Assembly (NCBI RefSeq): GCF_015841355.1
Contig: NZ_CP064908.1
Location: 2,480,001-2,544,000 of the forward strand
Direction: 5' to 3'
Origin: Synechococcus sp. CBW1107
GTDB taxonomy: Bacteria > Cyanobacteriota > Cyanobacteriia > PCC-6307 > Cyanobiaceae
Length of the DNA: 64,000 bases
The translations under genes and the position numbers were made by a program. Below the pieces are notes generated by a model, which was given only the letters and a program-made list of their open reading frames with translations, had not been told where the DNA came from and ran no database searches. Shown here one piece after another: positions 55,763-61,861 of this stretch; position 1 is the first letter of the stretch; the number at the start of each line of letters is the position of its first letter.

Positions 55763-56254
55763 ATGGCCGATACCTACTCCTTCGATGTGGTCTCCGATTT
55801 CGACCGTCAGGAGCTGGTGAATGCCCTGGACCAGGTCCGGCGCGAGGTGGGTCAGCGCTACGACCTCAAGGACTCGAAGACCGAGATCGAGCTGGATGAC
55901 GAGAGCATCACCATCACCACCGCCAGCGACATGACCCTGGAGGCGGTGGCTGATGTGCTGCGCCAGAAGGCCACCAAGCGGGAGCTCTCCCTGAAGATCT
56001 TTGATTTCCAGACCGCCGAGCCCGTGGGTGGCAACCGCATTCAGCAGGTGGTGAAGCTGCGCAAGGGGCTGAGCCAGGAGCTGGCCAAGAAGCTCAGCAA
56101 GACCGTGCGCGACCAGGTGAAGAAGGTCACCGTGGCGATCCAGGGGGAGAGCCTGCGCGTCACCGGCAAGAACAAGGACGATCTCCAGCAGGTGATCCAG
56201 CTGCTGCGGGCCGAAGACCTGGACGTGCCGATTCAGTTCGAGAACTACCGCTGA
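55763..56254 (+). CDS. YajQ-family nucleotide-binding protein
   Basis: 163 residues. MADTYSFDVVSDFDRQELVN, ALDQVRREVGQRYDLKDSKT and VVKLRKGLSQELAKKLSKTV with VRVTGKNKDDLQQVIQLLRA-type ending are canonical for YajQ (PF04461), ferredoxin-like two-domain proteins that bind RNA/nucleotides and, in Xanthomonas, cyclic di-GMP. The TGA stop forms TGATG with the start of a 46-codon frame of unclear status. Confidence 0.95.
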   Translation: MADTYSFDVVSDFDRQELVNALDQVRREVGQRYDLKDSKTEIELDDESITITTASDMTLEAVADVLRQKATKRELSLKIFDFQTAEPVGGNRIQQVVKLRKGLSQELAKKLSKTVRDQVKKVTVAIQGESLRVTGKNKDDLQQVIQLLRAEDLDVPIQFENYR

Positions 56255-56446
56255 TGATGATTCCCATTCTCTACTTGTCCTGGTTCTGTGGAGCCGCGGT
56301 GAAGAGTGTTTTCGGGGTCAGGGCATGGGCGGCCAGCGGATCGGCGGAAGCTACGCTTGAGTTGTCAGACGGTTGGGTTCTGCTGATCAGGTGATGCCAG
56401 ATCAGAGCGTCATTCTTGAGATGGGATTGATGTGATCAGGCCTCAC

Positions 56447-56450
56447 TTCA
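56447..56450. repeat. target-site duplication, left (TTCA)
   Basis: TTCA immediately before the left terminal repeat at 56451; an identical TTCA follows the right end at 57699-57702. Four bases fits the IS5 family. Confidence 0.75.
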
Positions 56451-56477
56451 GGGCACCTCGAAAAATCGTAAGACCGC

Positions 56478-56505
56478 TTGATAACGTCCGGATTTAGATT
56501 ATACT
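56478..56505 (+). promoter_or_regulatory. sigma-70 promoter of the transposase
   Basis: TTGATA (56478-56483), 16-base spacer, TATACT (56500-56505). The start ATG lies 25 bases after the -10 box, so the leader is very short; no Shine-Dalgarno sequence is visible. Located inside the element, as expected for autonomous expression. Confidence 0.65.
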
Positions 56506-56530
56506 AGGCCATACCGATTACATACTTTCT

Positions 56531-57565
56531 ATGGGCCAGCGAGGTTTCTGGGACGAACAACAAAGAGTTGCAAAGCTCCAAGAGAAGAAGCCGGTTCTGA
56601 TCCGTCTCGCAGAATCGATTCCCTGGGAATCTTTCCGCCCTTTGCTTGACAAGGGCTATAGCCAGGAGCGCAAAAGCAATGCTGGACGCAAGAGAATCGA
56701 CCCACTGATTCTTTTCAAGATGCTGGTGCTCCAGCAGCTATTTAATTTAAGTGATGAAGAGATCGAATTCCAAGTAAATGACCGTCGCTCCTTCGAGGGG
56801 TTTGTTGGTCTTGGGGTGATGAATGACATACCAGATGCCACCACAGTCGCCTTCTTCAGAGAGCGACTGCGCAAGGCGGGAGTTATCGAGGAACTCTTTG
56901 AGATGTTTGAGGAATACCTGCGCTCTCAGGGTCTCCAAGCCCGGGGTGGTCAGATCATTGACGCGACTCTCGTCCCTGTTCCCAAGCAACGCAATACCCG
57001 CGAGGAGAACAAGGAAATCAAAGCCGGAAGGCTGCCAGAGGGCTGGGATGAAAACCTAGACCGCTTGCAGCAAAAGGATTTAGACGCTCGCTGGACACAA
57101 AAGAACGGCCTCAGTTACTACGGTTACAAGAACAGTATTTGCATCGATGTCGACCATGGATTCATACGCCGATATGCTGTCACTCCTGCCAATATCCACG
57201 ACAGCCAGATGCTTCCACTTCTGCTTGATCCAGAAAACGAGCATGACTATGTCTGGGCAGACTCAGCATATTCCGGCGAATGCTTTGATGCTCTTCTGAG
57301 TCTCGGTGGCTTCGAAAGCCTGATCCACGAAAAAGGCGCTCGCAATCATCCGCTTAGCGACGCAGCCAAGGAATTAAATCGTCTTAAGTCGTCGATCAGA
57401 GCTTGTGTCGAGCATGTCTTTGGCTGCATGACCATGTCCATGGGTGGAAAGCTGACAAGAAAGATTGGGCTAGAAAGGAACGAGGCTTGGTGGGGTCTCA
57501 AGAACCTAACATTTAATTTACTGCGCTATCTCCAGCGCTCTGCCCACGTAGTAGTGGTTGCATGA
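56531..57565 (+). CDS. IS5-family transposase
   Basis: 344 residues. N-terminal DUF772-type domain (NAGRKRIDPLILFKMLVLQQ, FNLSDEEIEFQVNDRRSFEG); DDE domain with first Asp in GGQIIDATLVPVPKQRNTRE, second in DYVWADSAYSGECFDAL and the E in RLKSSIRACVEHVFGCM-type YxxR/E region. YYGYKNSICIDVDHGFIRRY and VTPANIHDSQM are IS5/IS1031-like. Full length, no frameshift, so the element is likely active. Its codon usage is AT-richer than neighbours, a sign of transfer. Confidence 0.95.
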   Translation: MGQRGFWDEQQRVAKLQEKKPVLIRLAESIPWESFRPLLDKGYSQERKSNAGRKRIDPLILFKMLVLQQLFNLSDEEIEFQVNDRRSFEGFVGLGVMNDIPDATTVAFFRERLRKAGVIEELFEMFEEYLRSQGLQARGGQIIDATLVPVPKQRNTREENKEIKAGRLPEGWDENLDRLQQKDLDARWTQKNGLSYYGYKNSICIDVDHGFIRRYAVTPANIHDSQMLPLLLDPENEHDYVWADSAYSGECFDALLSLGGFESLIHEKGARNHPLSDAAKELNRLKSSIRACVEHVFGCMTMSMGGKLTRKIGLERNEAWWGLKNLTFNLLRYLQRSAHVVVVA

Positions 57566-57631
57566 GTCACTCATAGAAGTGATACGGTTCAGTGAAACTC
57601 GTCAATAGTTGATATAATGCTTTCTTGCGTA

Positions 57632-57655
57632 GCCGCCTCCATGGCGGCATTTTTA
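57632..57655 (+). terminator. intrinsic terminator of the transposase
   Basis: GCCGCC and GGCGGC pair around TCCAT and are followed by ATTTTTA, 67 bases after the transposase stop and still within the element. It would shield downstream DNA from transposase transcription. A TATAAT stands just upstream (57613-57618), so a weak outward promoter before it would be blocked. Confidence 0.65.
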
Positions 57656-57698
57656 TGTCCGCAAGATTTCCTATTTGTGCTGATTATTCGAGGTGCCC

Positions 57699-57702
57699 TT
57701 CA
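57699..57702. repeat. target-site duplication, right (TTCA)
   Basis: Matches 56447-56450 and directly follows the right terminal repeat. Confidence 0.75.
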
Positions 57703-57747
57703 GTGGACCTAGCTTCTTGGCACCTTCGCCTTATCGGATGAACAGCC

Positions 57748-57960
57748 ATGAAATTCTTCGAACTGATTTCCTTTTCTGATGAGGAAAGCATCACTGGCGG
57801 AAACCCGAACTTGACTAACAACCCGTCGGAAGTCTAACTGCCAAGATCTGGCGGTACGAACTATGGCCAGGCCACAAAGAACGGAGGTGGTGGTCTCGGC
57901 AATCCCTCCGTTCGTTATGAAGGAACGAATTATGGTCAGTACAAAAGAGAGAACAGTTAG
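57748..57960 (+). pseudogene. double-glycine leader peptide, core interrupted by a stop
   Basis: ATG 57748 opens MKFFELISFSDEESITGG, an 18-residue leader matching the double-glycine consensus (hydrophobic -12, Ser -11, acidic -8, Ile -4, Gly-Gly -2/-1), then NPNLTNNPSEV and TAA at 57835. The same frame continues for 40 more codons to TAG at 57958 with two related units: NPSEV-stop-LPRSGGTNYGQATKN and NPSVRYEGTNYGQYKREN, sharing GTNYGQ. Either the 29-aa product is real with an 11-aa core, or a longer secreted repeat peptide lost its reading by a nonsense change. No ribosome site is visible and no exporter is nearby. DNA is AT-rich. Remaining DNA 57961-58108 holds only a CTGAGAC/GTCTCAG inverted repeat. 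Confidence 0.5.
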
Positions 57961-58108
57961 ATCGCTGTCTGAGACACGTTGATTCCTGCTGGGTCTCAGC
58001 CTGTGCTGGATCCTCTCCATCCCATGTCCCCTGCCTGCGCGGGGGTCGCGTTGTGTTCCGCGTCGCCGCTCGCGGTTCCTTCTGCATATCGATCGAATAG
58101 CGTCGGGC

Positions 58109-61100
58109 TTGCGTTGGGCAGAAGGTCCTCTGGAGCGCGATAGGCCAGCTGTCGCAGAACCCGGCAACCGGAAGTCCGCCCGTCCGTCCTCCGGCTGGCA
58201 TTTCTGGATCGACCGAGGCGGCACGTTCACCGACCTTGTGGGGCGTAGCCCCGTTGGTGAACTGGTGGTGCGCAAGGTGCTCTCGGAGCAGCAGGGGCTG
58301 CTGGGCGATCCGGCCGTGGCCGCCATCCGTGAGTTGCTGGGTGTCTCCCCGGGCGAGCCCCTGCCGCCGGGGGCCGTCAGCGAGGTCCGTCTCGGCACCA
58401 CCGTGGCCACCAACGCCCTGCTGGAGGATCGCGGCTCCCCCACCCTGCTGCTGATCACCCGGGGCTTCGCCGATGCCCTCTGGATCGGCGATCAGCATCG
58501 CCCCGACATCTTCGCTCTGGACATCCAGCGTCCGGCCCCGCTCTACCGGCGTGTGCTGGAGGTGGAGGGGCGGCTGGCGGCCGACGGCATCGAACTTCTT
58601 CCTCTGCGGCTCGATGCCCAGCTGGAGACCGCCCTGAGAACGGCCCGTGCCGAGGGCCTCAGCAGCTGCGCGGTGGCCCTGCTCCATGGCACACGGCACC
58701 CCCGCCACGAACAGCAGCTGGGCGACTGGCTGCGGCCCTTCGGTTTCGATCCCGTGGTGCTCTCCCATCGGGTGGGCCTGCGGCCCCGTCTGGTGTCACG
58801 AGCCCAGACCACCGTGGTGGAGGCCTGCGTCTCACCGGTGCTGGAGGCCTATCTCGACCGGTTGCGAGACGACCTCGGTCCTCACTGCCGCCTGCGCGTG
58901 ATGCAGTCGAGTGGGGGGCTGATCGCCCCGGAGCTGCTCCGTGCCAAGGACACGATCCTCTCCGGTCCGGCCGGCGGGATGGTGGCCGCGGTCAGGCTCG
59001 CCGGCGGAGTCGCACCGATTGTCGGTTTCGACATGGGCGGCACCTCCACCGATGTCTTTCACGCACGGCCCGACGCCTCCGAGGGCGTCTGGGAGCGCCG
59101 CGAGGACACCGAGATCGCCGGCCTCACCCTGCAGGCGGAGATGCTGCCGATTCACACCGTGGCCGCCGGAGGTGGGTCGGTGCTCCATTTCGATGGGCAG
59201 CGTCTGCAGGTGGGGCCGGCCTCCGCCGGGGCGGATCCGGGGCCGGCCTGCTATCGCCGCGGCGGACCGCTGACGATCACCGACGCCAACCTGCTGCTGG
59301 GCCGCCTGCAGCCGGCCGCCTTTCCGGCGGTCTTCGGTCCGTCCGGGGATCAGGGACCCGATCCGGAGCGGGTTGGGCGGATGTTCCGCGAACTGGCCGA
59401 GCGCGTCAGCCGGGCGACGGGTCGCTCCAACACACCCGAATCGCTGGCGGAGGGCGCCGTGGCGATCGCGAACGATCGGATGGCCGAAGCGATCCGGCGG
59501 ATCTCGATCGAGCGTGGACATGATCTTCGCGGTGCCACGCTGGTCTGCTACGGCGGGGCCGGAGGACAGCACGCCTGCGCTCTCGCCGATCGGCTGGGCA
59601 TCCGCCGGCTGCTGCTCCATCCTCTGGCCGGGGTGCTTTCGGCCTATGGCATCGGCCTGGCCGACCAGAGGCTGCTGCGGGAGGAGGTGGTGCGCGAACC
59701 ACTCGACGAGGCGTTGGTGGCTCGGCTGCGGCGGCGGGCTGCCGAGCTGGTCGAGGACGGCTCCCGTGCCTGGAGCGGGCTCCCCGCCGACGACGCACCT
59801 GCGCTTCGGGCCTTGTTCCGCGTCGGGGTGAGGCTCGCCGCCAGTGAGCTGACCCTGGCGCTTCCGCTGTCCGAGGTGCCGAGCCTGCGCAGCGGATTCG
59901 AGCAGGCCCATCGCCAGCGCTTCGGACACGCGCCGGAGGACGCCGCGCTGGTGGTGGAGTGGTTGCTGGTGGAGCTGGTGGCCCCTGGACCCGATCCGGA
60001 CGCCTCTGCTCCACCTCCTGCGCCAGAGTCGCCCAGCCGTCTTCCGGCCACGGCCGGGCAGGGTGCGGACCACCTCATCCCCCTTTACTGGGGCGGCCGA
60101 TGGCACCCTGTTCCCCTGCACAGGCGCGAGGCACTGCGCAGGGGAGCGGTGCTCGTCGGCCCCGCGCTGGTGGTGGAGCCCACCGGCACCCTCGTGCTCG
60201 CACCCGGTTGGTCGGCAGCCCTGCAGGCCGATGGCCTCCTGCTGGTGACCCGCGCCGCGCCGGCTGTGCCGGCAACTGCCGAACCGTCCAGCGCGGGGGA
60301 GATCGACCCGGTCAGCCTCGAGCTGTTCAACCATCGCTTCTCGGCTGTGGCCGAGCAGATGGGGGTGCTGCTGCAGCAGAGCGCCCGTTCGGTGAACATC
60401 CGCGAGCGCCTCGATTTCTCCTGCGCCGTCTTTGACGCCGCTGGGGAGCTCGTGGCCAATGCGCCTCACATTCCGGTGCATCTGGGCTCGATGGGGGCCA
60501 GCGTCGCCGACCTGCTGGACGCAGTCCGGCGGCAGGAGCATCCCCCCCTGCGACCGGGTGATGCGATCGTCTCGAACCACCCCGCCCATGGCGGGACCCA
60601 CCTGCCTGATCTCACGGTGATCACTCCGGTGTTCCTGCCGGGGTGCGACTCCGCCCCTGAGTTCTTCGTGGCGTCCCGTGGCCATCACGCCGATGTGGGC
60701 GGGATCACACCGGGATCGATGCCCCCCTTCAGCCGGCGGCTCGAGCAGGAGGGGCTCCTGCTCGACAACGTGCCGCTGCTGCGCGGGGGCACGCTGCTGG
60801 AGGCCGACTGGCGGCGGCGGCTGGCGGCGGGGCGCTGGCCCGTGCGCAACCCGGATCAGCTGCTGGCCGACCTGCAGGCTCAGGTGGCCGCGAACCAGCT
60901 CGGGGCCCGCCTGCTGGTGGGGCTGGCCGACCGGGAGGGAGCGGGGGTGGTGCGGGCCTTCATGGCCCATGTGCAGGACAACGGTGCCGAGGCGGTTCGG
61001 CGGGTGATCGATCGGCTCGAGCCGGGTCACGTCCGTCTGCCCCTCGACGGTGGCCTGGTGATCAACGTGACGGTGCGCATCGATCGCCCGGGCCGCCGCG

Positions 61101-61861
61101 CCGTGATCGACTTCAGCGGCACCTCCCCCCAGGACCCGGGAAACCGCAATGCCCCGCTGGCGATCACCCGGGCGGTGGTGCTCTACGTGTTCCGCTGCCT
61201 GGTGGGGGAGGACGTGCCCCTCAATGCCGGCTGCTTCCGACCACTGGAGCTGATCGTGCCTCCGGGGTCCCTGTTGCATCCGGGGCCTGATGCTGCCGTG
61301 GTCGCCGGCAACGTGGAAACATCCCAGGCGATCGCCAATGCCCTGTTCGCGGCCCTGGGGGTGATGGCCGCGGCCCAGGGCACCATGAACAACCTCAGCT
61401 TCGGGAACGAGCGCCATCAGTACTACGAGACGATCTGCGGTGGATGCGGTGCCGGACGCGGTCTCGATGGCCTGGGTTTTGCGGGCGCTTCGGCGGTGCA
61501 GAGCCACATGACCAACTCCCGCCTCACCGATCCCGAAATCCTCGAGGAGCGCTTTCCCGTGCGCCTGGACTCCTTCAGCCTGCGCCGGGGCAGTGGTGGG
61601 GCCGGCCGCTGGCCGGGCGGCGACGGGGTGGTGCGGCGCCTGCGCTTTCTGGAGCCGATGACTGCCGCGATTCTCTCGAGCTCTCGCCAGGTGCCCCCCT
61701 TCGGACTCGGCGGCGGCGGGGCCGGGGCGCTGGGCCGAAACCGGCTGATCCGCTCCGATGGCAGCGAACTGGAGCTGGACGGATCCGTGCAACTGGCGGT
61801 GGAGGCTGGTGATGCCCTGGTGATCGAGACCCCCGGAGGTGGCGGGTATGGCAGTCTCTGA
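58109..61861 (+). CDS. oplAH: ATP-dependent 5-oxoprolinase (HyuA-HyuB type fusion)
   Basis: Hydrolyses 5-oxoproline to glutamate with ATP. About 1250 residues. Residues ~30-690 are the HyuA-like actin-fold part (FWIDRGGTFTDLVGRSP, LGTTVATNALLEDRG, ILSGPAGGMVAAVRLAGG, VGFDMGGTSTDVFHA); ~730-1250 the HyuB-like part (DPVSLELFNHRFSAVAEQMG, ANAPHIPVHLGSMGASVADL, FVASRGHHADVGGITPGSMP, GNVETSQAIANALFAALG). Fusion of both is normal for 5-oxoprolinases. The start is uncertain: TTG 58109 is the only start codon before the domain I could place; no ATG/GTG is near. Its 3' end overlaps the GGT gene by 14 bases. Confidence 0.92.
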   Translation: MRWAEGPLERDRPAVAEPGNRKSARPSSGWHFWIDRGGTFTDLVGRSPVGELVVRKVLSEQQGLLGDPAVAAIRELLGVSPGEPLPPGAVSEVRLGTTVATNALLEDRGSPTLLLITRGFADALWIGDQHRPDIFALDIQRPAPLYRRVLEVEGRLAADGIELLPLRLDAQLETALRTARAEGLSSCAVALLHGTRHPRHEQQLGDWLRPFGFDPVVLSHRVGLRPRLVSRAQTTVVEACVSPVLEAYLDRLRDDLGPHCRLRVMQSSGGLIAPELLRAKDTILSGPAGGMVAAVRLAGGVAPIVGFDMGGTSTDVFHARPDASEGVWERREDTEIAGLTLQAEMLPIHTVAAGGGSVLHFDGQRLQVGPASAGADPGPACYRRGGPLTITDANLLLGRLQPAAFPAVFGPSGDQGPDPERVGRMFRELAERVSRATGRSNTPESLAEGAVAIANDRMAEAIRRISIERGHDLRGATLVCYGGAGGQHACALADRLGIRRLLLHPLAGVLSAYGIGLADQRLLREEVVREPLDEALVARLRRRAAELVEDGSRAWSGLPADDAPALRALFRVGVRLAASELTLALPLSEVPSLRSGFEQAHRQRFGHAPEDAALVVEWLLVELVAPGPDPDASAPPPAPESPSRLPATAGQGADHLIPLYWGGRWHPVPLHRREALRRGAVLVGPALVVEPTGTLVLAPGWSAALQADGLLLVTRAAPAVPATAEPSSAGEIDPVSLELFNHRFSAVAEQMGVLLQQSARSVNIRERLDFSCAVFDAAGELVANAPHIPVHLGSMGASVADLLDAVRRQEHPPLRPGDAIVSNHPAHGGTHLPDLTVITPVFLPGCDSAPEFFVASRGHHADVGGITPGSMPPFSRRLEQEGLLLDNVPLLRGGTLLEADWRRRLAAGRWPVRNPDQLLADLQAQVAANQLGARLLVGLADREGAGVVRAFMAHVQDNGAEAVRRVIDRLEPGHVRLPLDGGLVINVTVRIDRPGRRAVIDFSGTSPQDPGNRNAPLAITRAVVLYVFRCLVGEDVPLNAGCFRPLELIVPPGSLLHPGPDAAVVAGNVETSQAIANALFAALGVMAAAQGTMNNLSFGNERHQYYETICGGCGAGRGLDGLGFAGASAVQSHMTNSRLTDPEILEERFPVRLDSFSLRRGSGGAGRWPGGDGVVRRLRFLEPMTAAILSSSRQVPPFGLGGGGAGALGRNRLIRSDGSELELDGSVQLAVEAGDALVIETPGGGGYGSL

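Follow-up and report, generated by a model that had tools for sequence, protein, structure and literature searches.

The peptide locus

The window, by which we mean the whole stretch of 64,000 nucleotides analysed here, contains a small frame that encodes an 18-residue leader and a repeat core, is interrupted by an in-frame TAA and ends with a TAG at 57958-57960 (Table 1). Two imperfect copies of the NPS..GTNYGQ type make up the repeats, the first of which holds the TAA. The frame stays open for 40 further codons downstream of it, as is expected of a young nonsense mutation; the TAA may also be a read-level sequence error. Translation confirms two points of the preliminary description, the 18-residue double-glycine (GG) leader and the pair of imperfect core copies with a stop in the first, and the AT-rich DNA that it reported is right relative to the genome: the peptide gene has 47.4% GC and the whole window 68.6%. 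C39 transporters cut the leader after the GG during export, and here the cut would be expected behind the second glycine.

Table 1. Coordinates of the features at the peptide locus (window positions)
Feature	Position	Strand	Basis or remark
Double-glycine precursor peptide (pseudo)gene	57748..57960	+	Translation, leave-one-out profile, shuffles
Leader MKFFELISFSDEESITGG	57748..57801	+	Translation; GG columns invariant in 5 aligned rows
Core repeat copy 1, NPSEV(stop)LPRSGGTNYGQATKN	57820..57882	+	Translation
Core repeat copy 2, NPSVRYEGTNYGQYKREN	57901..57954	+	Translation
In-frame TAA	57835..57837	+	Column is Tyr in all four relatives (alignment)
IS5-family insertion sequence	56451..57698	+	Ends read from sequence; 4-base duplication TTCA at 56447-56450 and 57699-57702
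IS5-family transposase	56531-57565	+	271.9 bits (cut-off 140)
Left border gene, DUF520 family	55763..56254	+	Domain match
Right border gene, fused hydantoinase A/B	58109..61861	+	Congener similarity begins about 58193
Host-only insert between border genes	56255..58192		1938 bases; 1 of 9 genomes of the genus

An insertion sequence (IS) of the IS5 family lies upstream of the peptide gene. The ends read for it agree with those of a copy elsewhere in the genome, at about 1917187-1918436, which matches it without a difference over 1250 bases and carries a 4-base duplication of its own; three other genomic matches show identities of 100% over 1153 bases, 100% over 626 bases, and 84% over 1176 bases. 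Since an identical copy exists elsewhere in the genome, the IS is a recent arrival. The preliminary description had called it fresh, which stands, and had put it 46 bases away, which does not: the ATG is 49 bases from the IS end and 45 from the duplication. A scan of 57550 to 58150 found no sigma-70-like site but two terminator-like sites (shuffle mean 0.7), one of them within the right end of the IS. As a check for a shared promoter, the upstream regions of the window gene and of its four relatives were compared and have no common stretch of more than 9 bases.

The IS and the peptide gene stand between a DUF520 gene, which we take to be YajQ, and a fused hydantoinase gene. In all eight congeners, these two genes are neighbours in that order, and their matched parts are 12 to 54 bases apart. 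The insert seen in the host consists of the IS with one duplication (1252 bases) and 686 bases that carry the peptide gene. A search of 197 genomes with the 490 bases 3' of the IS (the 196 bases before it lay outside this search) gave, besides their own place, matches of 20-30 bases in eight genomes; nothing longer turned up in the 196 genomes other than the host. The simplest reading would be an insertion into the host site; without an outgroup, the alternative may be a loss in the congeners.

Relatives of the peptide

With the frame as query, an X standing at the stop, a search of 400 family genomes gave one lead, in genome G217 (E=0.0026). At E up to 1, the same search matched 73 of the 400 genomes, five of which are counted as members; the other 68 are taken as chance, with four of these (L010, L013, L016, and L018) inspected. 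The G217 match is a small gene without interruption that has its GG at the corresponding position and carries two NYG repeats. With its peptide as query, six of the 400 genomes matched (L045 was inspected, L042 and L044 were not), which led to G135 at E=0.0037, a metagenome-assembled genome ('Cyanobacteria bacterium K_DeepCast_35m_m2_155', VGQS01000054.1). The G314 member was recovered by inspecting the weaker matches of the first search. A four-row profile matched 12 of the 400 genomes, seven of them weakly (L058, L061, L062, L063, L064, and L066 were inspected, L059 and L060 were not), and in five the member is matched over most of the profile: G000, G008, G135, G217, and G314. G000 is the window genome and G008 belongs to the same genus, hence relatives occur in four other genomes of the 400; G008 is the only peptide carrier among the eight congeners. 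A class-wide draw of 291 genomes, searched at E up to 0.02, returned the own genome and no other; the draw evidently does not include the four known relatives and therefore says little on rarity.

All four relatives are uninterrupted, and the GG at residues 17-18 is invariant in the five aligned rows. Their cores are 33-55 residues long, follow an NPSxxY + N(Y/W)GQ pattern that occurs once or twice, and contain no cysteine. Two weaker candidates of the profile search, L066 (G222) and L063 (G161), are GG-leader peptides whose leaders are similar but whose cores are quite unlike, and they were left out of the member count. A leader-only query (first 29 residues, 60 relatives) found its own copy and otherwise one match at E=0.8 (L007), which was inspected and rejected. 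Viral contigs gave no confirmed relative with either of the alignments searched.

Exporter genes beside the relatives

In three of the four relatives (G008, G217, and G314), a full-length C39-peptidase ABC transporter gene and an HlyD gene adjoin the peptide gene. The row in G217 runs C39-ABC, HlyD, LuxR-type regulator, peptide; in G314, the C39-ABC and HlyD genes are closely followed by the peptide on the opposite strand, and the order in G008 is the same. The catalytic D/E-C-G is kept in all three transporters. With 0 to 3 C39 loci per genome among nine genomes of the genus, it would be very unlikely for three of four relatives to lie beside one by chance. The contig of the fourth relative (G135, 9.8 kb) has a LuxR-type gene about 4.7 kb from the peptide and, by eye, no C39 gene among its listed ORFs. 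No LanM-like gene and no other tailoring gene stood out among the listed ORFs of G217 and G314.

Several neighbouring genes deserve mention. A second possible GG precursor, MANEIFEALSPSEEEHLSGG..., lies on the minus strand at about 9250-9540 of L038, before the C39 gene of G217. After the G008 cluster comes an 898 aa glycosyltransferase-sulfotransferase fusion (L067 6957-9653), which the 893 aa gene behind the G314 cluster (L053 10323-13004) resembles by eye. The C39 gene of G008 is preceded, at a distance of about 1.3 kb, by a radical-SAM gene of 539 aa (L067 311-1930; Pfam match), and a close likeness of the latter, judged by eye, occurs in the host (L051 12005-13624) near a C39 cluster at 1088 kb; such genes thus stand near both clusters, though the G008 and the host 1088 kb peptides differ in core. 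NfeD/SPFH genes lie close to the peptide gene in G217 as well as in the window, which we leave as a possible coincidence.

C39 loci and other remnants in the host genome

Three C39 loci were found in the host genome, none of which is both intact and canonical; of 14 control genomes put through the same search, 8 gave C39 matches. In the locus at 1836905, the catalytic motif has Ser and TGA where its Cys and Gly should stand, the match covers only residues 4-415 of the 728-residue G008 protein, and an HlyD scrap follows about 7 kb on. The locus at 1088546-1090549 is broken by a Mutator-family transposase gene, an identical second one lies beyond the fragment, and within the 20 kb examined nothing matched past residue 253; this cluster retains an HlyD of normal length. 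Adjoining the broken C39 gene are two uninterrupted GG-leader peptides (L051; genome 1091097-1091300, plus strand, and 1091592-1091780, minus strand) with Asn/Asp/Ser-rich cores, 54% alike, the first of which, searched against 121 family genomes at E up to 0.01, gave no match in the 120 besides its own. The third locus (2801440) is part of a gene with cNMP-binding, C39, membrane, and ATPase domains (L052 4629-7859, genome about 2799600-2802900) and adjoins an HlyD-like and a rotamase-type gene; in our alignment, its C39 domain has no catalytic Cys.

Long frames with weak C39 scores, like that at 2801440, occur in five of the eight congeners (G001, G004, G005, G007, and G008). Among the nine genomes of the genus, G008 alone outside the host has a strong and full C39 match. 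G007 and G004 carry 62 and 36 residues, 92% and 89% identical, respectively, to the start of the G008 C39 protein; we read these as remnants because they stop short while the contigs continue, that of G007 for 324 bases without more of the gene and that of G004 being long. The host also has a further match to the peptide profile near 1847380 (E=0.0094 to 0.014, the latter value from the profile that excludes the window frame) with no readable in-frame leader, probably a second remnant of the peptide family.

Interpretation

We consider that 57748-57960 is very probably a recently silenced precursor gene of a small exported-peptide family, the intact members of which would rely on C39/HlyD export. 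Within the libraries and literature searched, this fits the preliminary description, which had proposed a silenced member of an undescribed picocyanobacterial peptide family; its suggestion of C39-ABC export is in keeping with the C39-ABC and HlyD genes that adjoin three of the four relatives. It had pointed to uninterrupted relatives with a conserved leader, to other copies in the genome, and to a C39-type transporter as places to look, and these have yielded, respectively, four relatives with NPS/NYGQ-type cores, the one probable remnant near 1847380, and the transporters beside the relatives together with the three host loci.

In the intact members, the C39 domain of a dedicated ABC transporter would recognise the 18-residue GG leader and cleave it, and the transporter, together with HlyD and presumably an outer-membrane channel, would release a mature peptide of 33-55 residues bearing one or two NPSxxY..G(T/S)NYGQ(Y/F)-like repeats. 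As the cores have no Cys and no tailoring gene was noticed in G217 and G314, the peptide probably acts extracellularly and in a largely unmodified form. The radical-SAM gene near the G008 C39 gene, with its likeness (by eye) at the host 1088 kb cluster, argues against 'unmodified'. In the host, a gene with no exporter of its own between the DUF520 and hydantoinase genes would have gained a nonsense codon in its first repeat, and the IS5-family element would have landed 49 bases 5' of the peptide start; the loss of expression and the order of insertion, stop, and IS are what we infer. The stop in the Tyr column, the recent IS so close upstream, and the lack of an intact canonical C39 locus make the host gene look dead or dying. 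The HlyD and the two intact GG peptides at 1088 kb may mean that export was lost only recently or that an unrecognised exporter is used. That the precursor and all the C39 loci found are damaged or non-canonical together suggests that making these peptides has a cost, or pays off only under certain conditions.

The evidence has to be weighed against two other accounts of the frame. It could be a chance open frame that happens to resemble a GG leader: it is short, it has no meaningful Pfam or NCBIfam family, and caution is called for in that the relatives were reached through a search chain starting from the window sequence itself, the first link of which is weak (one of 400 genomes). A return search with the G217 peptide alone does not recover the window frame among matches at E up to 0.1, and in the own genome its sole match is the remnant at 1847374 (E=0.036). 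Opposed to chance is the leave-one-out profile, built from the four relatives with the window frame excluded: searched against the whole own genome, it gives the frame E=1.6e-11, and against the window in six frames E=4e-13 (49.4 bits), the next unrelated stretch there reaching E=6. None of the 1994 full shuffles scored (best 14.2) and none of 2000 core-only shuffles (best 20.6) reached 49.4 bits, and the relatives adjoin C39 and HlyD genes. Chance therefore seems to us extremely improbable, and in our view the leave-one-out profile already refutes it. The stop could instead be functional, leaving an 11-residue mature part, NPNLTNNPSEV, to be exported by a transporter in trans. The leader and its GG are intact, and the leader is alike at 6 of 15 positions to that of the host GG peptide at 1091097-1091300 (8 of 20,000 shuffles were as good). 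The cores of all four relatives, however, have 33-55 residues and the N(Y/W)GQ motif, the stop affects a conserved Tyr column, an intact canonical C39 exporter was not found in the host, and the IS sits just upstream. Little supports a working shortened core, and we regard it as highly unlikely.

What the intact members do is a separate matter and either answer is compatible with a silenced host gene. We give an EbfG-like matrix or signal peptide roughly even odds and think a bacteriocin or pore-former less likely, given a polar core built of repeats and the lack of a recognisable immunity gene. It is possible, if rather doubtful, that the intact members are CTB-type cyanobacterial bacteriocins and the host gene a dead bacteriocin. 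CTB (NF038167), a family of small cyanobacterial peptides, is the nearest named family and the only match of two relatives (E=0.0023 and 0.024), and a similar gene set appears in the portions consulted of PMC3140520; the scores of 18.1 bits (G008) and 14.8 bits (G314) are nonetheless under the cut-off of 32, the window frame, G135, and G217 have no match to it, and no immunity gene was recognised in scans not aimed at one. A broader and, we think, unlikely scenario is that GG precursor genes spread from one picocyanobacterial genome to another as small orphan cassettes, separately from the exporter genes, with one leader type joined to many unrelated cores. If so, the window would hold a caught cassette of less than 700 bases, absent from all eight congeners and decaying as no exporter came or survived.

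Comparison with known systems

The best reading is that the core family is new within a known kind, the cyanobacterial GG peptides with C39 export, to which it would add cores with a recognisable repeat. To our knowledge, few cyanobacterial GG peptides have a tested function, and the intact members beside exporters offer testable systems. The libraries and the literature searched, including the accessible text of PMC9846622 and PMC10783134 (subscription papers and supplements lay outside the scope), showed no description of the peptide family. Nif11-type/NHLP leader families gave no Pfam or NCBIfam match with the window frame (E up to 10) or the four relatives (E up to 1), in library searches where the program dropped most matches above about E 0.1.

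In Synechococcus elongatus, the EbfG1-4/PteB system comprises small GG proteins that enable biofilm formation and the efficient secretion of which requires the conserved C39 cysteine; as far as the sections consulted go, mature EbfG1-4 have no homology to proteins of other cyanobacteria (PMC4997328). The likeness to our family, compared by description only, is that of small GG-motif proteins with a C39 transporter. A closer parallel is group III of Wang, Fewer and Sivonen 2011 (PMC3140520), which in the parts of that paper available to us combines a short-type C39 ABC transporter, HlyD, and GG precursors. A short transporter (C39, membrane, and ATPase domains), HlyD, and a small GG precursor likewise occur together in G008, G217, and G314; the domains fit, and among the listed ORFs, of which some neighbours were scanned, no peptidase-less ABC, LanM, or S8 peptidase was noticed. 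A member of the family may already be listed among the precursors in the supplement of that paper. The same parts describe truncations and insertions as frequent and as stemming partly from transposases. Unlike the group III loci as described there, the host copy is orphaned, with all the C39 genes found a long way off.
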